Below, in pieces: positions 9,652-44,308 of a stretch of 64,000 nucleotides of DNA; positions within the stretch are counted from its first letter, which is position 1; each line of letters starts with the position of its first letter. The DNA lies in assembly GCA_028284905.1 (NCBI GenBank), contig JANQQU010000033.1, forward strand, positions 124,001 through 188,000. Reading direction: 5' to 3'. Under the pieces are notes generated by a model. The model saw only the letters and a list, made by a program, of their open reading frames with translations. It was not told where the DNA came from and made no database searches. The translations under genes were made by a program, and so were the position numbers. Origin of the DNA: Calditrichia bacterium. GTDB lineage: Bacteria; Calditrichota; Calditrichia; RBG-13-44-9; J075.

Positions 9652-10353
9652 ATGAAGGGGAATCTCTATATCGTTAGTACGCCGATCGGCAACCTGGAAG
9701 ACATCACCTTGCGGGCGCTGCGAATCCTGAAAGAAGTGGATTATATCTGCGCAGAGGATACCCGGGTCACCCGCCGGTTACTCAATCATTACGAGATAGA
9801 GAACACCCTGCTTAGCTATCATTCCCATAATGAGAGAGGCCGGATACCTCAAGTCATCGGTTTTCTTGATGACGGCCTCTCCGTTGCCCTCGTTTCCGAT
9901 GCCGGCACCCCGGGAATTTCCGACCCCGCCCATAAACTGGTCAAAGCGGCAATTCAATCCGAAATTGATATCATTCCGATTCCCGGTGTTACCGCATGTA
10001 TTCCCGCCCTGGTTGTTTCCGGATTACCGACCGACCGCTTCGTTTTTGAAGGCTTTCTTCCCCGCAAAAAAGGGCGGCAAACCAAGCTGCTTCAACTGGC
10101 TGAAGAGCCCGGTACCATTATCCTTTACGAGTCTCCACATCGAATTCAAAAAACAATTTCGCATATTGTAAACATTATGGGAAATCGTTATATTGTCGTT
10201 TCGCGTGAATTGACGAAGAAGTTTGAAGAGATTATTCGAGGATATGCGCAGGAGTTGTTAAGCGAACTGGAAACACGCACCCTGAAAGGCGAAATTGTCT
10301 TGCTCATCGCCGGACAGGATTTTAAACCAATTGAAGAAGAAAGAGCCAAATAG
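9652..10353 (+). CDS. rsmI: 16S rRNA (cytidine(1402)-2'-O)-methyltransferase RsmI
   Basis: 233 residues, the normal length. It has the full series of RsmI motifs: STPIGNLEDITLRAL at the start, AEDTRVTRRLL, the SAM-binding SDAGTPGISDP, PGVTACIPALVVSGLPTDRF, FEGFLPRKKGRQ, YESPHRI and SRELTKKFEE. It 2'-O-methylates C1402 in the ribosomal decoding centre. The stop codon touches the start of the next gene (TAGATG), so translation of the phosphatidyltransferase is probably coupled. Confidence 0.97.
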   Translation: MKGNLYIVSTPIGNLEDITLRALRILKEVDYICAEDTRVTRRLLNHYEIENTLLSYHSHNERGRIPQVIGFLDDGLSVALVSDAGTPGISDPAHKLVKAAIQSEIDIIPIPGVTACIPALVVSGLPTDRFVFEGFLPRKKGRQTKLLQLAEEPGTIILYESPHRIQKTISHIVNIMGNRYIVVSRELTKKFEEIIRGYAQELLSELETRTLKGEIVLLIAGQDFKPIEEERAK

Positions 10354-10998
10354 ATGTCTAAAAAGGGATTTACGCTGCTGCCGCGGTCGCTCAGGGATGC
10401 CTTTATAAATGCCATTGACGCGCCGGTAGACCTTATTATAAAATTTAATATCCACCCTAACATTTTTACCATACTCGGACTCATTGCCTCGATTATCGGG
10501 GCATACTTTTATTATATCGAATACCTTTTTTGGGGGGGCGCCGGAATTTTGATCGGAGGCGTCTGCGATACTTTCGATGGAAAGATAGCCCGGAAAACCG
10601 GCCGTTCCTCTAACTTCGGCGCGGTTTTCGATTCCAGTCTGGATCGTTATGCGGAATTCTTTATGTTCCTCGGCATTATGGGATATATGAACCGCTTCGA
10701 AGAACCACTTTATCAGATTACCACCGTCGTTGCTTTTCTTGCGCTGAACGGTTCCATTCTGGTCAGTTATGTGCGGGCACGGGCGGAAGGTCTGGGTTAC
10801 GAGTGTAAGGTCGGGGTGATGCAACGTGCGGAGCGAATAGTATTAATCGGTTTTAGTTCTCTCATTCATGAATATGCCTTGATCGCTGCGGTTTGGATTG
10901 TGGCTATTTTTGCCAATATCACCGCGATTCAACGACTGATTCATGTGTGGCGCACCGAGCGGGAAGATTTAAGTAAAGAGCAGCAGATCAACCAGTAG
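10354..10998 (+). CDS. CDP-alcohol phosphatidyltransferase, probably inositol-phospholipid synthase
   Basis: 214 residues, about six membrane helices. The catalytic signature D-x2-D-G-x2-A-R-x8-G-x3-D-x3-D is complete: Asp72, Asp75, Gly76, Ala79, Arg80, Gly89, Asp93 and Asp97. The enzyme joins a CDP-diacylglycerol-type donor to an alcohol at the inner membrane. Because inositol-3-phosphate synthase follows 147 bases on, the acceptor is likely inositol phosphate, giving phosphatidylinositol phosphate as in bacterial PIP synthases; this is inference from context. PgsA-type use of glycerol phosphate is the alternative. A strong terminator lies between it and the next gene. Confidence 0.9.
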   Translation: MSKKGFTLLPRSLRDAFINAIDAPVDLIIKFNIHPNIFTILGLIASIIGAYFYYIEYLFWGGAGILIGGVCDTFDGKIARKTGRSSNFGAVFDSSLDRYAEFFMFLGIMGYMNRFEEPLYQITTVVAFLALNGSILVSYVRARAEGLGYECKVGVMQRAERIVLIGFSSLIHEYALIAAVWIVAIFANITAIQRLIHVWRTEREDLSKEQQINQ

Positions 10999-11037
10999 TA
11001 TTACCTGGTTTTTTAATCCCAATATTTTTTTATAATA

Positions 11038-11065
11038 AAAAATGCCTTACTATAAGGCATTTTTT
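11038..11065. terminator. Intrinsic terminator between phosphatidyltransferase and ino1-like gene
   Basis: AAAAATGCCTTA (11038-11049) and TAAGGCATTTTT (11053-11064) form a perfect 12-bp stem with a three-base loop and a T-run; A-rich sequence before it makes it potentially bidirectional. Confidence 0.9.
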
Positions 11066-11145
11066 AATTCATGGCTATGCATAATCTGCCATGGGAAATG
11101 ACTTAGAAAACGCAGAAAATAAGAAACCAACTGAAGGAGTGTGCT

Positions 11146-12474
11146 ATGAAAGATGCACCGAAAGTCGAAGTTGCACCAGCCAAAGGACGGCTGGGAATAT
11201 TAATACCAGGGATGGGCGCAGTTGCTACTACATTTATTGCCGGTGTATTAGCTGTCCGTAAAGGCATTGGCCAGCCGATCGGCTCCCTGACCCAAATGGG
11301 AACGATCCGCCTCGGCAAAAGAACTGAAAACCGGGTACCTATGATTAAAGATTTCGCGCCGTTAAGTAGTCTGGATGATCTTTATTTTGGCGGCTGGGAT
11401 ATTTTTGAAGAGAATATGTATGAGTCCGCCGTTCATGCCGGTGTTCTGGATAAAAACCTGCTCGATGATATTCGCCCGGAAATGGAAGCGATCAAGCCCT
11501 GGAAAGGGGTTTTCTCGAAAGATTATGTCAAGAAGCTGGACGGTAGCTATGTAAAGACCGGCGGCACCAAGTGGGATTATGCCCAAATGGTGATGGATGA
11601 TATCAAATCTTTCAAAGACAAAAACAACCTGGATCGCATGGTGATGGTTTGGTGCGGTAGCACGGAAATTTTCCTGAAGCCGGAAGACGTTCACCAAACA
11701 CTGGCCGCTTTCGAGCAGGGCCTGAAAGACGATCATCCCTCAATTGCACCGAGTATGATCTACGCGTACGCAGCGATTAAGATGGGCATTCCGTATGCCA
11801 ATGGCGCCCCCAACCTTTCCGCTGATATTCCCGCATTATATGAATTAGCAAAGCAAACCCAAACCCCGATTACCGGGAAAGATTTCAAAACCGGCCAGAC
11901 CTTGATGAAGACGATTCTCGCGCCTGGTTTAAAAGCGCGTCTGCTGGGAATTTCCGGTTGGTTCTCCACCAATATTCTTGGTAACCGGGACGGTGAAGTT
12001 CTCGACGATCCGGCATCCTTCAAAACGAAGGAAGAGAGCAAGCTCTCGGTATTAGATCAGATCCTCCAGCCGGAAGTTTATCCGGACCTCTACAAAGATT
12101 ATTACCACAAGGTTCGTATCAATTACTATCCGCCGCGCGGCGATAACAAAGAAGGCTGGGACAACATCGACATTTTCGGCTGGCTCGGTTATCCGATGCA
12201 GATTAAAATCGACTTCCTCTGCCGGGACAGTATCCTTGCCGCACCGATCGTTCTCGATCTCGCCCTGTTCCTCGACTTGGCGAAGCGTTCCGGTTTCTCC
12301 GGTATCCAGGAATGGCTTTCCTTTTACTGGAAGAGCCCGATGGTACTTGAGGGACTTTATCCCGAACATGATATCTTTATCCAGTTGATGAAGCTGAAAA
12401 ACACCCTGCGTTATATGATGGGTGAAGATCAGATTACGCACCTGGGTGCTGATTATTATGAATATTATCGTTAA
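11146..12474 (+). CDS. Inositol-3-phosphate synthase (MIPS)
   Basis: 442 residues. The NAD-binding start GILIPGMGAVATTFIAGV and the strongly conserved core TGKDFKTGQTLMKTILAPG, ISGWFSTNILGNRDGEVL and FKTKEESK identify the MIPS family, which turns glucose 6-phosphate into 1L-myo-inositol 1-phosphate. The late segment MQIKIDFLCRDSILAAPIVLDL is also typical. GAAGGAG lies 7 bases before the ATG. Next to the phosphatidyltransferase it indicates endogenous supply of the inositol headgroup. Own promoter likely, since a terminator precedes it. Confidence 0.96.
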   Translation: MKDAPKVEVAPAKGRLGILIPGMGAVATTFIAGVLAVRKGIGQPIGSLTQMGTIRLGKRTENRVPMIKDFAPLSSLDDLYFGGWDIFEENMYESAVHAGVLDKNLLDDIRPEMEAIKPWKGVFSKDYVKKLDGSYVKTGGTKWDYAQMVMDDIKSFKDKNNLDRMVMVWCGSTEIFLKPEDVHQTLAAFEQGLKDDHPSIAPSMIYAYAAIKMGIPYANGAPNLSADIPALYELAKQTQTPITGKDFKTGQTLMKTILAPGLKARLLGISGWFSTNILGNRDGEVLDDPASFKTKEESKLSVLDQILQPEVYPDLYKDYYHKVRINYYPPRGDNKEGWDNIDIFGWLGYPMQIKIDFLCRDSILAAPIVLDLALFLDLAKRSGFSGIQEWLSFYWKSPMVLEGLYPEHDIFIQLMKLKNTLRYMMGEDQITHLGADYYEYYR

Positions 12475-36101: not shown

Positions 36102-36848
36102 TTTTTGCTCCCTTTTTCATACATATGAAAATGCAGAAAAAGTATCCAAATGTAAAGTAGTCACTTTTAAATTGTATAGTTCTTATTTTTAGACTATTTA
36201 ATAAAAACAAGATGTTAAACTATACTGCATTTTTGAAAGATTGTTGCCGGAAGCGATTAAATATATTCGCGGCGGATAATGTGACTGATAATTTCGTACC
36301 GCCAGTTACAGCGAGAAAAGCTGCCACATACGATAAACCGGCAAGTTTTCGGTGCAACGGTTCATTATCATTGGCGTATTTTCAAAAAAGGACGCTTGAT
36401 TCCTAAGAGAGTTCACAACATGCATTTGGAGAAGCGGCAAACAGCTCATTATCAGAAAAATACTGCGAGGAAAGAGAGATCATTTTTCGGTAGTGTTAAA
36501 GATGTAATGCTATTTGCCCTCGTCATTGCGAGGCGCTTTTTGCCGAAGCAATCTTTAAAGTGCATGCAACTATGAGATCGCTTCGGCAAAAAACGCCTCG
36601 CGATGACAGCTCGTAGCATTGCTTCTTTAACACCACTCATTTTGTAAATGGGAATAAGCACTCTATGCAAATATCAGTATTTGTTTTTTTAGCGTTATTT
36701 GCATATTCTCCTTAGATTTCCTAATAAGTTGTTTTTTTATTATAATATAGCGTCATTACCTGCAAACGAAGGCTGCCTGTTTTTCTTCCGACAGTTGGAC
36801 AACATTCACCCTCAGCAAATCATCAGGTAATTAAGGAAGCACAGAAGT
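36102..36848. other. Long intergenic region (747 bases) carrying a large palindrome
   Basis: The region separates divergent genes. Apart from the palindrome at 36493-36634 and AT-rich promoter-like stretches just upstream of each flanking gene, I see no gene. A 64-codon frame at 36212-36406 lacks recognisable features. Confidence 0.6.
36493..36634. repeat. Large inverted repeat (about 140 bases), REP/MITE-like
   Basis: Outer arms GTGTTAAAGATGTAATGCTA (from 36493) and the complement of TAGCATTGCTTCTTTAACAC (ends 36633) enclose inner arms CGTCATTGCGAGGCGCTTTT/TGCCGAAGC (36521-36549) and GCTTCGGCAAAAAACGCCTC/GCGATGACA (36580-36608). The pairing is nearly complete, leaving a 30-base loop. The inner CGTCATTGCGAGG/CCTCGCGATGAC core resembles widespread bacterial palindromes. 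A fragment lies at 20965-20997. Confidence 0.8.
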
Positions 36849-39041
36849 ATGGATATGGAACTCTCTTACCTACGCCTTTCAACGATTGTCCTTTCTATCT
36901 TTGGCGGTGTACTGCTTTCTGTCCTGGCAAGACACATGCGCATACCGGCGATTGCCCCACTCTTGGTAGGGGGTGTTTTGCTTGGCCCGGAAGTTTTTGG
37001 TGTTATTGATACCGGATCGCTTGGGGAAGGGCTACGCCTGATCATCTCTCTGAGCGTGGCAACAATTCTCTTTGAGGGTGGCCTGACTCTGGAGTTTAAA
37101 GGCATCAAAAAAGTAGGTGGTGTTATTCTTAGAATGCTCACACTCGGTGTACTCGTTACCTGGCTGGGCACTGCCTTTTTTACCTATTACCTTTTCGATG
37201 TTTCCATATCAATGGCCTTATTAGCCGGCAGCTTAATCATCGTCACCGGTCCAACGGTGATAACCCCACTGCTCAATCGTGTTAAAGTGAAAGAAAATCT
37301 GCATCATATTCTCCATTGGGAAGGGGTATTGATTGACCCAATCGGCGTATTTATTGCGATTCTATGTTTTGAATGGTATAGCGTTAGTAGTTCTCCCCTG
37401 GAGCCGCTCACTCATTTTGGTTTACGGGTACTTGTTGGGGTTGTAGTCGGATTAATGGGAGGCTTCGGCACATACTGGCTTTTAAAGAAAGATTGGATTC
37501 CGGAACAACAGGCGAATATTTTTGTGCTCGCAATGGCGTTGTTTCTCTTTGGAATTTCGGACTTTTTCGTGCACGAATCTGGCATTCTGACCGTCGTTGT
37601 CGCCGGATTTTCCCTGGGTTGGAAAAAACCGATGCAGCTCCGCCATATTCAAAAATTTAAGTCGGAGTTGACGGAGATGGCAATTGCGATCCTCTTCGTA
37701 CTGCTCTCTGCAAATTTACAGTTGGAAAATTTCCTGAAACTGGGCGTTGTTGGCGTTATCCTGATTGCCCTGGTCATGTTTGTCATTCGACCATTAAATG
37801 TTGCTGTTTCTACTTTTGGCAGCACACTATCCCTGCGGGAGAAGCTATTTCTCTCCTGGATAGCGCCACGGGGCGTCGTTTCCGGCTCTATGGCTTCATT
37901 ATTCGCAATTCAGCTATCCCGCAGTGGCAGTTCAACCGCCGCTTTTCTGGAAGCCTTTACATTTAGCATTATTGGCATTACGGTTTTATTTCAGGGTTTA
38001 TTTTCCGGCGGCGTTGCCCGTGTACTAAAAGTGAAGGCTGCACCGAAGCAAGGCTGGCTGATAGTTGGTGCTCACTATTTTTCCCGCAAAGTTGCGAAAT
38101 TCATTCAGCTGTCGATTGGCAGCAAATGTGTTTTGATCGATTCCAATGACGACGCCGTCCGGGAAGCGCAGAAGGAAGGATTTACGGCAATACAAGGAAA
38201 TGCAACCGCTATCGAGACGATTCCCGATGATATTTTCACCGCTACCGGCAATATATTAGCGCTTACCGATAACCGTGCACTGAATCAGCTGATATGCGAA
38301 AAGTGGTCCGAACATCTTAGCCGGGACCATCTCTACCGATGGTCTTCCAAACCTGACGAAGAAGAAAATAGCCGGGCGATGGGCACGATCGTTTGGCAAA
38401 ACCTACCAAATCCATCCCGAATAGCCTATGATCTCCGCAATAAGGAAGCGACCCTGATACGAACCAAAACGGATCGCGCTGTCAGCAAAATTCTCCCCGG
38501 AACAGTCCCGCTTATTGCTCAGCAAAATGGTTTCACCGCGCTGGATAATTTCAACTGGAATAGTGAAGGTGAAGCATTGCTTTATCAGCAGCTGTCTTCA
38601 AACCTACCGTTCTATGTGCATTTGGATCACATCATCGATATGAAAACAGACAGTATCGATACATTGCTGGAAACTGCTCTGGAGCAAGCTTGTAAAATTC
38701 ATCCGGAAATTCCCTATGAAGATACCTTCAACACACTTCAAACCCGGGAAAAGAACTTTCCGACGCTGTTGGGCAACGGCGTATCGGTACCGCACGCCCA
38801 CTGTACAACTTTAAAAGAACCGGTCTGCCTGATCGTGAGGAATCCACAGGGCATAATCATGAACGGGGATCATGAACCATCCCGGTTATTTTTTGTTACC
38901 CTGAGCCCGGCGGCTGATCCGGAACTGCATTTAATTTTACTGGCAGATATTGCGAAAATCGCTTCTGATGAAGAATTAATTGCGCGTCTCTTTAAAACGC
39001 CCGAGGCTGAGAGAGTGATCGACTTGTTACGGGAAGTTTAA
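36849..39041 (+). CDS. Na+/H+ antiporter (CPA family) fused to RCK/TrkA-N and PTS-EIIA domains
   Basis: 730 residues, three parts. Residues about 5-400 form a twelve-helix CPA antiporter: IPAIAPLLVGGVLLGPEVFG, ATILFEGGLTLEFKG and VLIDPIGVFIAIL, with the Asp of the transport site in LIDP. Residues about 405-520 form a TrkA-N/RCK Rossmann domain (GWLIVGAHYFSRKVAKFI; CVLIDSNDDAVREAQKEGF; LALTDN), a nucleotide-sensing gate. Residues about 600-728 form a type-2 PTS EIIA-like domain with active-site His649 in GNGVSVPHAHC and ADPELHLILLADIAKI. Transport could thus respond to cytosolic nucleotides and to PTS phosphorylation state (inference). ATGs at 36849 and 36855 are both possible. Confidence 0.93.
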   Translation: MDMELSYLRLSTIVLSIFGGVLLSVLARHMRIPAIAPLLVGGVLLGPEVFGVIDTGSLGEGLRLIISLSVATILFEGGLTLEFKGIKKVGGVILRMLTLGVLVTWLGTAFFTYYLFDVSISMALLAGSLIIVTGPTVITPLLNRVKVKENLHHILHWEGVLIDPIGVFIAILCFEWYSVSSSPLEPLTHFGLRVLVGVVVGLMGGFGTYWLLKKDWIPEQQANIFVLAMALFLFGISDFFVHESGILTVVVAGFSLGWKKPMQLRHIQKFKSELTEMAIAILFVLLSANLQLENFLKLGVVGVILIALVMFVIRPLNVAVSTFGSTLSLREKLFLSWIAPRGVVSGSMASLFAIQLSRSGSSTAAFLEAFTFSIIGITVLFQGLFSGGVARVLKVKAAPKQGWLIVGAHYFSRKVAKFIQLSIGSKCVLIDSNDDAVREAQKEGFTAIQGNATAIETIPDDIFTATGNILALTDNRALNQLICEKWSEHLSRDHLYRWSSKPDEEENSRAMGTIVWQNLPNPSRIAYDLRNKEATLIRTKTDRAVSKILPGTVPLIAQQNGFTALDNFNWNSEGEALLYQQLSSNLPFYVHLDHIIDMKTDSIDTLLETALEQACKIHPEIPYEDTFNTLQTREKNFPTLLGNGVSVPHAHCTTLKEPVCLIVRNPQGIIMNGDHEPSRLFFVTLSPAADPELHLILLADIAKIASDEELIARLFKTPEAERVIDLLREV

Positions 39042-39051
39042 CAGAGAAGTA

Positions 39052-39077
39052 GGTTTTCTCGATTATTGAGAAAATCC
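39052..39077 (+). terminator. Weak hairpin after the antiporter gene
   Basis: GGTTTTCTC (39052-39060) and GAGAAAATCC (39068-39077) pair around a seven-base loop. There is no T-run, so termination is uncertain. Confidence 0.35.
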
Positions 39078-39243
39078 GCATTGCTTTAAAAAATAGATTC
39101 GTTTATCTTTGCGGCATATCTTGAACCGGACTGGATTTTTTTGTATTATGACGTTCGGGGATTTACAAATTTTCTGAATATTTATCTAATGACAGCGACT
39201 TGCCGCCTTAACCGGTCCTCTTATCGGATGGCCAGGCGACGAA

Positions 39244-41424
39244 ATGGATCGGACACTTATGACTATAGCCAGTAATGCAGCTCTCCGTCATTTCCTGATT
39301 GCGATCGCATTCATTGGCTGTTTTTTTTCCGAAACCGCACTAAGTCAAACAATAGACCTTGCCTTAACTGATACCCTTCGCATTATTAAGCCTCAATCCC
39401 AGACGGAGCAAAATTTTTCCGGCGACCGGCAATATGATGTCGTCAGTAATCGCCTGGTGCGCCCCTTACGGGTACGCGTCATTAAACAAGATGGCGAACC
39501 GGTAGAAAATATTCCGGTATATTTTGAACTAATTTCCCATCCGCAAAAAGCGAAATCCTTTGCCCTTGAAGATCCGGTTGCTTATACCGATGATACCGGA
39601 TTTGCAGAGACCTATTTCACGCTTGGCTCCGCTCCGGGAGAGTACCAAATTACTGCCCGGATCAATGCCGGACAACGTGGGTCCGATCTGATTGTCTTCA
39701 ATACATTTGCCCGGAAAGCAAACTGGATTCTGATGCTTATTATCGGTCTGGCCGGTGGGTTGGGTATGTTTCTCTACGGCATGAAACTAATGAGCGACGG
39801 CATGAAAAAGAGTGCCGGCGACCGCCTCCGTTCTATTTTGAGCCGATTGACCCATAATCGTTTTATCGCCCTTGCTGTCGGCGCTTTCGTAACAATGGTC
39901 ATTCAAAGCAGTAGTGCGACGACGGTGATGCTGATTAGCTTCGTCCAGGCGCAATTGATGAGCTTTACCCAATCTCTCGGGATCATCCTTGGCGCGAACA
40001 TCGGGACGACATTTACCGCACAAATTATCGCTTTCAAACTGACCGACTATGCTCTCCTGATGGTTGCTGTTGGCATCGCACTAATGTTCCTCAGTAAGAG
40101 GGAAAAAACGGCCACGATGGGAGAAACCCTGCTCGGGTTTGGTTTACTCTTTTATGGCATGCAAATAATGTCCACTGCGATGTATCCCTTGCGCACCTAC
40201 GATCCCTTTATCGAATTACTTATTAAACTGGAAAATCCCATTTGGGGGCTTTTGGTCGGAACAATTTTCACTGCACTGATTCAAAGCAGCAGTGCTTTTA
40301 CCGGAATTCTCATCGTTCTTGCTATCCAGGGTTTATTGACATTGGAAGCGGGCATACCACTCATATTCGGTGCCAATATTGGTACCTGTGTTACTGCCGG
40401 TCTGGCCAGTTTGAATGCCAGTCGGGAGGCAAAACGCGTAGCGATTGCCCATACCGCTTTTCAAATTGCCGGCGTTATTCTTTTCATTCTCTGGATTCCT
40501 TCCTTTGTGGAATTGATTCGCTGGATATCCCCAAAAGGCAGTGCAGGCCTCACCGGCACTGCACATCTTGCCGCCGTCGTTCCGCGGCAAATTGCGAATG
40601 CACATACTATTTTTAATATTGCCACAGCATTGATCGTCCTGCCGTTCTTGAAACTGACAGCAGATGTCATTCTTCGCATACTGCCGGAACAAGCGGTTGT
40701 CGAAAATGAGCCTTACCAGGCCAGGTTTCTGGACCTCTCCCTGCTAACTACGCCAGCCCTGGCACTTAGTATGGCACGGGCAGAAGTTTTACGAATGGGA
40801 GATATGTCCCGCACAATGGTGAAAAAAATTATCGATCCTTTTATGGAACGAGATCGGGAAGCCCTCGATGAAATAGAGATTATTGAAGAAGAGGTAAATT
40901 ACCTGGAAGGCAAGATAAACGACTACCTGACGCGCATCAGTCAGCAAAGTATTCCTGAAGATCAGGTCGGTGAAGTCTTTCAGATGATGTATACTGTTAC
41001 CGAATTTGAACAAATTGCTGATATTGTCACCAAGCAACTCTGGCCGCGTGCGCTGGAATGGCTGGGAGGCAATCATCAGTTTTCCGAGCAAGGTAAGGAA
41101 GAGATATTAATCTACCACGTTAGCGCCCTAAAACAGATCAGCCGGGCAATAGATACTTTCCAAAATGCTGATTTGAAGAAGGCAAAGCGTATGAAAGTCA
41201 AATTCAAAAAGTACCGTTCGATGGGCGACGATTACATGCGCACACATTATGAGCGTCTTCGGGAAGCGGTGCCGGAAACCCAGGCATCAACAGAATACCA
41301 CATTGATCTTCTCGAGCAATTCCGCCGGATCAACGGGCACTCTACTAACATTGCCAGAATTCTCATTGAATGGTCTGGTGAAGTAAAAAATATAGACAGC
41401 AAGGATAGTAAAAAGCCTAAGTAA
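39244..41424 (+). CDS. Na+/Pi cotransporter (NptA-type) with N-terminal Ig-like domain and PhoU-like tail
   Basis: 726 residues. A signal helix (about 14-36) is followed by an exported Ig-like beta-domain (about 65-160; RPLRVRVIKQDGEPVENIPVYFEL). The transporter core (about 160-475) has the paired QSSSATT and QSSSAFT motifs with LGANIGTTFTAQ and FGANIGTCVTAG, the hallmarks of NptA/PF02690. The C-terminal 220 residues form PhoU-like helical repeats (EIEIIEEEVNYLEGKINDYL). It would import phosphate with Na+, with the PhoU-like region regulating it. The Ig-like front end is unusual for the family. The gene sits between the antiporter and a SixA-type phosphatase. Confidence 0.93.
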   Translation: MDRTLMTIASNAALRHFLIAIAFIGCFFSETALSQTIDLALTDTLRIIKPQSQTEQNFSGDRQYDVVSNRLVRPLRVRVIKQDGEPVENIPVYFELISHPQKAKSFALEDPVAYTDDTGFAETYFTLGSAPGEYQITARINAGQRGSDLIVFNTFARKANWILMLIIGLAGGLGMFLYGMKLMSDGMKKSAGDRLRSILSRLTHNRFIALAVGAFVTMVIQSSSATTVMLISFVQAQLMSFTQSLGIILGANIGTTFTAQIIAFKLTDYALLMVAVGIALMFLSKREKTATMGETLLGFGLLFYGMQIMSTAMYPLRTYDPFIELLIKLENPIWGLLVGTIFTALIQSSSAFTGILIVLAIQGLLTLEAGIPLIFGANIGTCVTAGLASLNASREAKRVAIAHTAFQIAGVILFILWIPSFVELIRWISPKGSAGLTGTAHLAAVVPRQIANAHTIFNIATALIVLPFLKLTADVILRILPEQAVVENEPYQARFLDLSLLTTPALALSMARAEVLRMGDMSRTMVKKIIDPFMERDREALDEIEIIEEEVNYLEGKINDYLTRISQQSIPEDQVGEVFQMMYTVTEFEQIADIVTKQLWPRALEWLGGNHQFSEQGKEEILIYHVSALKQISRAIDTFQNADLKKAKRMKVKFKKYRSMGDDYMRTHYERLREAVPETQASTEYHIDLLEQFRRINGHSTNIARILIEWSGEVKNIDSKDSKKPK

Positions 41425-41447
41425 ACATTTATAACAGTGAGGTTATT

Positions 41448-42167
41448 ATGAAAACATTGTATCTGGTACGCCACTCCAATGCAGCACCTTTAAAAGAAAA
41501 GACTGATGATTTTACCCGTAAACTGACTAAAAAAGGCAAGCAAAGCGCAAAAAAGATGGCCCATCAATTTGCCGCCACTGATCCATCCGTGGATTTGATT
41601 ATTTCCAGCCCTGCGAATCGTGCATTGGAAACCGCCCGCATATACGCCAAAGCACTTGGATATGATGACAGCGATATCCTTCTATATGAACACATCTACG
41701 AGCAGGAAGGCGGTGCGGAATCGCTGTTGAAGCTTGTCCATGCTATCGACAACAGCCGGGGATCGGCAATGATTGTTGGCCATGAGCCGCTTCTTTCCAC
41801 TTTCGCGACCTTTCTGCGCCGGACATTTACAGAAGAGCTTCCGGAAAACAGCGTTGTTCATTTCGATTTCAATAATCGCACCTGGGATAAAATATCCAAA
41901 GGGCGCGGCGTGGTTAAGTCTTTCGAATTTCCTGATAAAGAAGCGGTTCTCCGGCAACGATTTATTACAGGCCTGGAAACCAGCATAGCAGACGGCATCC
42001 GGGAGCAACTCGCTGCACATGACCCGGAAAGCGCCGGCCGGGTGGAAGAAAGCGTGCAAAAAAGTGTGAAGAAGCTGGTAAAAGCTTTCCTGAAAAAGCC
42101 GGTAGAAAAGAAAAAGAAGAAAAGGTCTGGAAAAGACAAAGGTAAAGCTAAAGGTAAAAAAGGTTAA
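41448..42167 (+). CDS. SixA-type phosphohistidine phosphatase with Lys-rich tail
   Basis: 239 residues. The histidine-phosphatase core is at 1-150: catalytic YLVRHSNA (Arg8, His9), SSPANRALETA (Arg58) and VGHEP (His112). The RHS and short length of the core match SixA rather than phosphoglycerate mutase. SixA in E. coli removes phosphate from a PTS phosphocarrier histidine. The extra 90 residues are helical and end in a poly-Lys stretch (KKPVEKKKKKRSGKDK), possibly for binding nucleic acid, polyphosphate or membranes. GAGG precedes the ATG at 41448, 23 bases after the phosphate transporter gene, so the two are probably co-transcribed. Confidence 0.9.
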   Translation: MKTLYLVRHSNAAPLKEKTDDFTRKLTKKGKQSAKKMAHQFAATDPSVDLIISSPANRALETARIYAKALGYDDSDILLYEHIYEQEGGAESLLKLVHAIDNSRGSAMIVGHEPLLSTFATFLRRTFTEELPENSVVHFDFNNRTWDKISKGRGVVKSFEFPDKEAVLRQRFITGLETSIADGIREQLAAHDPESAGRVEESVQKSVKKLVKAFLKKPVEKKKKKRSGKDKGKAKGKKG

Positions 42168-42237
42168 CCCCGGCAGGGTATGTAAGTGTTCATTGACATT
42201 ATTGCCTTGCTCTAACTCTATTACGCGGAGTCCTGAA

Positions 42238-42924
42238 ATGAGTCGACTGCTTCTTTTTGCGATGTGTCTGTTTTGTTTAAGTGCTTGTTCAAAATCCATG
42301 AAGGTGCCCCCCAAGGCACACCCGGATACAGCGAATTGGCAACCCTTGTTTGCCGAGGACTTATCCAACACTGAATTTCCCGAAGGCATTTGGACAATGA
42401 CAGATGGGATCCTTACCGCTAGTGAAGACCAGAACATCTGGACAAAAAAAGATTATGACAATTTTATCCTCGATCTGGAATTCAAAACAGAAGATGGCAC
42501 CAATAGTGGCGTCATTGTTTACTGCAGCGATCCGGGGAATTGGATCCCCAATTCGGTAGAAATTCAAATCGCTGATGATTATGCTGAGAAATGGGCAAAG
42601 AGTCCGAAAACATGGCAGTGTGGCGCGATCTTTGGCCATCTGCCCGCCAGCAAACAAGTGGTTAAGAAAGCAGGCGAATGGAATCGCTATACAATCACCT
42701 GTCAGGACAATATGATTTATGTGATCCTTAACGGCGAGGCGATAACAACCCTTGATATGAAACTATGGACCAGTGCAAAAACCAATCCCGATGGCAGTGA
42801 AATACCTTCCTGGCTTAGTAAGCCGCTGGCAGAGTTGCCGACAATGGGCCGTATTGGTTTTCAGGGGAAACATGCCGGCGCACCGATTTATTTCCGCAAT
42901 ATCAGAATTAAAGAGCTGAAATGA
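42238..42924 (+). CDS. DUF1080 (3-keto-disaccharide hydrolase-like) lipoprotein
   Basis: 228 residues from the ATG at 42238 (GGAG upstream). A lipoprotein signal ends at LSAC. The body is one concanavalin-like DUF1080 domain: NWQPLFAEDLSNTEFP, a central GTNSGVIVYCSD and the close MGRIGFQGKHAGAPIYFRNIRIKEL. Members of the family are exported and several act on 3-keto sugars or glycosides. The stop overlaps the next start (ATGA), so it begins a three-gene operon with two methyltransferases. Confidence 0.93.
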   Translation: MSRLLLFAMCLFCLSACSKSMKVPPKAHPDTANWQPLFAEDLSNTEFPEGIWTMTDGILTASEDQNIWTKKDYDNFILDLEFKTEDGTNSGVIVYCSDPGNWIPNSVEIQIADDYAEKWAKSPKTWQCGAIFGHLPASKQVVKKAGEWNRYTITCQDNMIYVILNGEAITTLDMKLWTSAKTNPDGSEIPSWLSKPLAELPTMGRIGFQGKHAGAPIYFRNIRIKELK

Positions 42925-43670
42925 CCGACGCTTCAAAATGGTTTAATGATGATAGCTACTGGGACGCGCTGGGGCCGGTCTTTTTTAGCCCCGGTCGCCT
43001 GGAGAAAGCGGATACGGAAGTGGCCCAAATTATCGAGCTATTGTCACTTCCGGAAGGCAGCGCAGTGCTGGACCTTTGCTGCGGCGTTGGTCGCCATACG
43101 ATAGCTTTTGCCCGCAGCGGGTACCGGGTAACGGCTGTTGATCGCACGCCAGCTTATTTGCAGGAAGCAGAGCGAAAGGTGCAGGCCGCAAATCTGGCGG
43201 TCGATTTTGTTCAGGCGGATATGCGCGACTTCTGCCGGCCGGGGAGTATGGATGCAGCGATTAATCTCTTTACTTCGTTTGGCTACTTTGCGCATCCCGA
43301 TGATGATCGCAAAGTCATTGAAAATATTTACAAAACCCTCAAACCCGGCGGTAAAGTCGTTCTGGAAATGATGGGTAAAGAAATTCTCGCTGGCAATTTC
43401 CGCGAGCGGGATTGGTCGGAAGACAATGGCATTATGGTCTTGGAGGAACGTAAAGTTCGCGATGACTGGGGGAGCATCGAGAGCCGCTGGATTGTCATTA
43501 AAGATAGCAAGAAATATGAACGTACAATTTCTCTCCGCCTCTATAGCGGCAAGGAGCTTTCTCACCTCTTAACTTCCTGTGGGTTTTCCGAAGTGAATGT
43601 TTATGGCAACCTGGCCGGCAGCAATTATGATCATGCTGCAGAACGACTGGTAGTCCTCGGGCACAAATAA
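42921..43670 (+). CDS. Class I SAM-dependent methyltransferase
   Basis: 249 residues. Motif I is VLDLCCGVGRHTIAFAR, the acidic loop TAVDRTP, then FVQADMRDF and the post-motif LKPGGKVVLEM. A Cys replaces the first Gly of the usual GxGxG. Substrate is not evident. The gene overlaps its neighbours on both sides (ATGA upstream, TAATG downstream), showing tight translational coupling. Confidence 0.92.
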   Translation: MTDASKWFNDDSYWDALGPVFFSPGRLEKADTEVAQIIELLSLPEGSAVLDLCCGVGRHTIAFARSGYRVTAVDRTPAYLQEAERKVQAANLAVDFVQADMRDFCRPGSMDAAINLFTSFGYFAHPDDDRKVIENIYKTLKPGGKVVLEMMGKEILAGNFRERDWSEDNGIMVLEERKVRDDWGSIESRWIVIKDSKKYERTISLRLYSGKELSHLLTSCGFSEVNVYGNLAGSNYDHAAERLVVLGHK

Positions 43671-44308
43671 TGGAAAATAACATTTGTCCACTCTGCCAAA
43701 AAAATCAAAGCCGCACCTTTTTTCAGGATGATCACCGGGAATATTTTCGCTGCCGGAATTGCTCACTGGTTTTTGTGCCGGCCCGTTTTCACCTCTCTCC
43801 AGAAGAAGAAAAATATCGTTATGATTTACATGAGAACTCCCCGGATGATCCCAATTATCGGCGCTTCCTCGGCCGCCTTTTTCAGCCGTTGTCCCAACGA
43901 CTTTCTCCTGGTGACGCCGGTCTGGATTTTGGATCCGGCCCCGGACCAACCCTCTCGGTGATGTTTCAGGAAAACGGCTTTCCCATGCGCATCTATGACC
44001 ATTTTTATGCTAATGATCCGGCAGTCTTTCAGCAACAATATGACTTTATCACTGCAACCGAGGTGCTGGAACATTTGCATCATCCGGACAAAGAATTGAA
44101 ACGACTCTGGGATTGTTTAAAACCCGGCGGATATTTTGGCATTATGACCAAGCTGGTGCTGGACAAAGCTGCCTTTTCAAAATGGCATTATAAAAACGAC
44201 CCTACCCACGTCAGCTTTTTCTCCCGGGATACATTCAACTGGATTGCGAAACAATGGCAGGTAACGGTTGAGTTTATCGGTAGCGATGTAACCATCTTCC
44301 AAAAATAA
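43670..44308 (+). CDS. Zinc-ribbon SAM-dependent methyltransferase
   Basis: 212 residues. The N-terminus is a zinc ribbon with CPLC and CRNC pairs spaced about 20 residues apart. The methyltransferase domain has LDFGSGPGPTLSVMF (motif I), DFITATEVLEHLHHP and LKPGGYFGIMTKL. The HVSFFSRDTFNWI close is seen in methyltransferases acting on sugar or lipid intermediates. The start overlaps the stop of the preceding methyltransferase by one base. Confidence 0.92.
   Translation: MENNICPLCQKNQSRTFFQDDHREYFRCRNCSLVFVPARFHLSPEEEKYRYDLHENSPDDPNYRRFLGRLFQPLSQRLSPGDAGLDFGSGPGPTLSVMFQENGFPMRIYDHFYANDPAVFQQQYDFITATEVLEHLHHPDKELKRLWDCLKPGGYFGIMTKLVLDKAAFSKWHYKNDPTHVSFFSRDTFNWIAKQWQVTVEFIGSDVTIFQK

Follow-up and report, generated by a model that had tools for sequence, protein, structure and literature searches.

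An antiporter-RCK-EIIA fusion beside an NptA-type transporter and a SixA-like phosphatase in a Calditrichia bacterium

Layout of the locus

The window analysed here is a 64,000-nucleotide stretch of DNA from a Calditrichia bacterium, whose source assembly amounts to 8.55 Mb in 93 contigs. Three consecutive genes, all on the forward strand, are the subject of this report:

36849-39041, + strand: cation/H+ antiporter-RCK-EIIA gene (730 aa)
38637-39035, + strand: part of this gene coding for the EIIA domain (aa 597-729, with Arg633, His649 and a second His, His694)
38793-38795, + strand: codon of His649, computed from the protein position and the start at 36849
39244-41424, + strand: NptA-type Na+/phosphate symporter gene (726 aa)
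41448-42167, + strand: SixA-like histidine phosphatase gene (239 aa)

The antiporter gene and nptA are 202 bp apart, and nptA and sixA are 23 bp apart. A previous sequence-only reading had delimited these genes and named their domains; the open reading frames proved exact and Pfam bears out the domains, with the Ig-like domain of the second protein present only as a sub-threshold match. Promoter and terminator scanning of the locus gave matches no more numerous than those in shuffled sequence. Upstream of the antiporter gene, positions 36490-36636 of the window hold nested inverted repeats (33 nt at 91% and 23 nt at 87%) with the motif CGTCATTGCGAGGCG, which look like a small palindromic mobile repeat. 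Downstream, positions 42193-44308 encode a 3-keto-disaccharide hydrolase lipoprotein and two methyltransferases, close-packed on the same strand.

The antiporter-RCK-EIIA protein and its family

The product of the first gene scores against the Pfam families Na_H_Exchanger (136.7 bits), TrkA_N (33.4) and PTS_EIIA_2 (PF00359; 65.5, above the gathering score of 27), and is laid out as a CPA1 antiporter of the NhaP2/YcgO type (residues ~1-395), followed by RCK_N (~402-492), an RCK_C-like region (~513-581) and a PtsN-type EIIA domain (~597-729). Its best NCBIfam relatives are the PRK05326 potassium/proton antiporter models, with 157 bits against an equivalog cut-off of 355, and it shows ID at the place where an ND motif is usual. 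A CorC domain gave no Pfam match in this protein, and the RCK_C-like fold at ~513-581 occupies its place. The EIIA domain falls below the PtsN equivalog cut-off (TIGR01419, 40.8 vs 138.7), but EIIA-Ntr is nevertheless its closest fold. His649, already proposed as the active site from sequence, indeed aligns with the PtsN histidine in a 'VPH' motif, and a second conserved histidine (His694) and Arg633 are also present.

The AlphaFold model of the full-length protein (mean pLDDT of 90) matches NhaP antiporters in Foldseek. Since most of these matches covered the membrane domain, the cytosolic part (residues 398-730) was modelled separately, and the resulting model (mean pLDDT of 93) matches solved EIIA-Ntr structures (3urr, with a TM score of 0.88 by target length and 1.8 A), as well as the RCK rings of KtrA, TrkA and MthK. 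The glycine motif of RCK domains (aa 403-415 of the antiporter) is replaced at all loci by a conserved W-[IV]-[IV]-G-A-H, with H409 kept in 74/79 proteins, which means that nucleotide binding may differ from that of classical RCK domains.

A scan of GTDB genomes provided a sample of 80 loci with this fusion, most of them full-length matches with 36-55% identity, in Calditrichota, SAR324, Verrucomicrobia/Opitutales, Planctomycetes, Acidobacteria, Sumerlaeota, Spirochaetes and other groups. The antiporter-RCK-EIIA fusion is thus a real and widespread family, whose closest full-length members within the class are found in Calditrichota metagenome-assembled genomes. In an alignment of 79 fusion proteins, 72 extend through the EIIA active site, three rows end at contig ends or at a frame break, and four proteins of ~600 aa lack EIIA. 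Of these 72, 67 have a histidine at the position of His649 and the other five an asparagine, whereas the histidine at the position of His694 is kept in 70/71. The lysine found two residues after the active histidine in free EIIA proteins (PHCK or PHAK) is replaced across the whole fusion family. This loss, together with the five asparagines, would be expected if the EIIA had degenerated into a domain that serves for docking or dimerisation and is not phosphorylated at all; the conservation of both histidines above 90%, the presence of Arg633 in the window protein and the occurrence of HPr and EI in nearly all host genomes (37/40 and 36/40 of the fusion-bearing genomes, respectively, vs 7/14 control genomes for each family) make such a degeneration quite improbable. 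The asparagine-bearing proteins are those of loci L106, L140, L147, L149 and L154; the genome of L147 has EI and no HPr match.

The Calditrichia genome itself encodes EI, at L054 9257-11035, and HPr, adjoining mannose-type IIC and IID, plus an amino-acid permease (APC)-EIIA fusion as well as two free EIIA proteins, so that this bacterium has genes whose products could supply phosphate to His649. Around the fusion genes, neighbours are conserved only among Opitutales, as synteny bound to that lineage. Two relatives from Calditrichota have the fusion in a cation cluster that also holds a CPA2-RCK antiporter, a K+ channel-RCK protein and an amino-acid permease-EIIA-TrkA_C protein, one of the clusters containing NhaA as well. 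APC-EIIA fusions, some of them with TrkA_C, were detected in the same genome as the antiporter-EIIA gene or directly beside it (L057:9253-11091, which is contig C77 of the own genome; L083:2354-4450; and L104:3280-5388, where the permease fusion comes after the antiporter-EIIA gene). No report or experimental study of EIIA-fused antiporters was found in the non-subscription literature searched, which is weak evidence of absence, and the architecture is very probably already listed in domain databases.

The closest known counterpart is the PtsN (EIIA-Ntr)-YcgO/CvrA system of E. coli, which likewise combines a CPA1 antiporter of the NhaP2 type carrying an RCK region with a PtsN-type EIIA. In E. 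coli, unphosphorylated PtsN binds and inhibits YcgO and phosphorylation weakens this binding, while the RCK region of YcgO is thought to be activating and its CorC domain to receive PtsN (PMC11808508). E. coli PtsN also binds TrkA, an RCK protein, and the control of TrkA and KdpD by EIIA-Ntr offers a second parallel in which an RCK protein and K+ homeostasis are the targets, although the partners are separate proteins (PMC13104625). Unlike all of these, the EIIA of the window protein is fused in cis; moreover, CorC is not detected and the host, a Calditrichota relative, is no proteobacterium. By analogy, the window fusion is best understood as the PtsN-YcgO control operating in cis. PTS control of ion transport by this protein, as had been suggested from sequence, is plausible given the intact-looking EIIA on the antiporter and the EI and HPr genes of the genome; the accompanying proposal that the neighbouring SixA resets the EIIA found no support.

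The NptA-type transporter and the SixA-like protein

The second gene encodes a signal/transmembrane segment, a weak Ig-like match (Big_1, 22.7 bits for a cut-off of 34.9), two Na_Pi_cotrans repeats (231.8) with QSSSA motifs at residues 221 and 347, and a PhoU tail (60.8). The protein passes the cut-offs of the NptA/Na-Pi cotransporter models (PF02690; TIGR00704, with 237.7 vs 210.1; and NF037997) and, like the cotransporter II-related proteins with a PhoU tail, carries a PhoU domain, the additional, weakly matched N-terminal Ig-like domain being its difference from them. The third gene product matches His_Phos_1 (36.4) and has SixA as its best NCBIfam model (TIGR00249), at 60.3 bits and under the cut-off of 74.5. 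It shares with E. coli SixA the histidine-phosphatase family and the catalytic residues (R8, H9, R58 and H112, in the arrangement R-H...R...H), but differs from it in its model score, in its length and in a basic C-terminal tail (aa ~161-239; of its 79 residues, 18 are K and five are R) that the sequence-only reading had left unmentioned and that proved relevant.

The sequence-only reading had proposed that the three genes form a single module in which the SixA-like protein dephosphorylates EIIA-His649, so that Na+, H+ and phosphate transport would be tied to the state of the PTS. Such an action could be direct or pass through phosphorylated HPr. Some data are in line with this idea, as the genes are adjacent on one strand, the catalytic residues are present and E. 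coli SixA lowers EIIA-Ntr phosphorylation, which it does by acting on NPr and not on EIIA (PMC7948535). However, blastp, HMM and tblastn searches found neither NptA nor SixA in the fetched flanks of the 80 fusion loci (some of which end at contig ends), save for two marginal matches at L115. Genomes that possess all three genes, including the sampled relatives within the class, have them on different contigs (C10, C5 and C3 in G021, for instance), and the conserved-neighbourhood search that the earlier reading had itself put forward found the trio together in no other genome searched. A conserved trio is hence rejected, and so is a genetic linkage between SixA and the PTS, because genes for EI, HPr or EIIA were found near none of 75 SixA loci (24 in relatives and 51 domain-wide). 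With the 202 bp between the antiporter gene and nptA, and a SixA branch that points to polyphosphate instead, a SixA-EIIA link is unlikely, and the resetting of His649 by the neighbouring phosphatase very unlikely indeed.

In the SixA tree, the window protein joins the tail-bearing SixA proteins of two relatives, G005 and G006, with moderate support (82/91), short SixA proteins forming a well-supported group apart (100/99). These two relatives have long KPAA-like tails on their SixA, which sits inside PPK2-CHAD-ParA-SixA-PPK1-PPX clusters. The own genome contains on contig C52 (L180 5727-11875) a PPK2-CHAD-ParA-PPK1 cluster, PPK1 being at 9659-11875, without SixA in the slot filled in G005 and G006, where just 23 bp lie between ParA and PPK1. 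The window copy differs from the SixA relatives of such ppk-CHAD-ParA clusters in lying outside the cluster, adjoining nptA. At L162 (7926-9182) and L163 (14539-15765), the polyphosphate operon contains a SixA whose fused tail is rich in KPAA and resembles histone H1. On a wider scale, a polyphosphate gene occurs near SixA in 9 of 24 other loci in relatives and in 9 of 51 loci domain-wide (18/75 in total), and tail-bearing forms are linked to polyphosphate genes in 7/8 cases. For comparison, PPK1, CHAD or PPX were near none of 80 background loci, against the 9/51 domain-wide SixA loci (Fisher p = 1.3e-4). In published gene maps, archaeal SixA likewise neighbours CHAD/PPX, and in HIMB59 the gene accompanies ppk/ppx (PMC10892726, PMC10734472).

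The location of its relatives in polyphosphate operons suggests that the likely substrate of the SixA-like protein is a phosphohistidine of phosphate or polyphosphate metabolism, and not EIIA-His649. PPK1 works via a phosphohistidine intermediate. A more specific proposal would be that this SixA branch acts on the phosphohistidine of PPK1, braking polyphosphate synthesis, while the basic tail docks on polyphosphate granules. The repeated neighbourhood with PPK1, CHAD and PPX would fit such a role, as would the activity of E. coli SixA on the phosphohistidine of Ndk (PMC12934123) and the resemblance of the tail, KPAA-like in G005 and G006, to that of AlgP, a polyphosphate granule protein with a tail of similar composition (PMC9239181). 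However, the copy in the own genome lies outside the ppk operon, its tail is short and of low complexity, and polyphosphate ends or small molecules would fit equally as substrates, so that a brake on PPK1 remains a tentative possibility, on the doubtful side.

Two probable units and their possible meaning

Altogether, the explanation that we consider fairly likely is that of two separate, adjacent units. The first one (36849-39041) would be a K+ (or Na+)/H+ antiporter of the CPA1 family and NhaP2/YcgO type, with a PtsN-type EIIA attached in cis to its RCK region. Phosphate would pass from PEP to EI, then to HPr and finally to His649. The unphosphorylated EIIA would lock or restrain the RCK-coupled antiporter and its phosphorylation would free it, as PtsN acts in trans on YcgO. 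The second unit (39244-42167) would be a phosphate pair, formed by the Na+/Pi importer NptA-PhoU and the tail-bearing SixA-like phosphohistidine phosphatase, which would act on a phosphohistidine of phosphate or polyphosphate metabolism rather than on EIIA-His649; nptA-PhoU and sixA probably make up such a pair, with the antiporter as an independent neighbour.

Several data weigh against this explanation: the lost +2 lysine, the asparagine in 5/72 proteins, the CorC domain that was not found, the moderate 82/91 join of the SixA tree, and the fact that nptA adjoining sixA was seen in this genome only. The three genes could even be unrelated housekeeping genes that lie together by chance, with no functional link between nptA and sixA either, as could be expected from NptA neighbours that vary from relative to relative. 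However, the 23-bp gap on the same strand, the phosphate-related appearance of both genes and the presence of SixA orthologues in polyphosphate clusters make a mere chance run rather unlikely. An antiporter-EIIA switch with a known trans counterpart is a good and testable reading of the first unit.

What would be new here is the proposed cis-fused EIIA switch, the trans control of an antiporter by PtsN being already known in E. coli. The fusion puts a debated trans interaction, the silencing of YcgO or TrkA by unphosphorylated PtsN, in one polypeptide of fixed stoichiometry, which makes gating testable by mutating one histidine in one protein. In its broadest form, which is speculative and unlikely to hold in full, single-chain PTS-gated antiporters, with permease-EIIA-TrkA_C fusions beside some of them, would make EIIA a portable cis regulator through which many phyla control the transport of ions and solutes and, separately, tail-bearing SixA would work at polyphosphate granules as the phosphohistidine phosphatase of PPK1. 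The family suggests that the coupling of the PTS to ion transport extends far beyond Proteobacteria. Likewise, polyphosphate metabolism, and not the PTS, may be where many SixA-like proteins act, in keeping with the published observation that NPr/HPr is missing from some genomes with SixA (PMC7948535).
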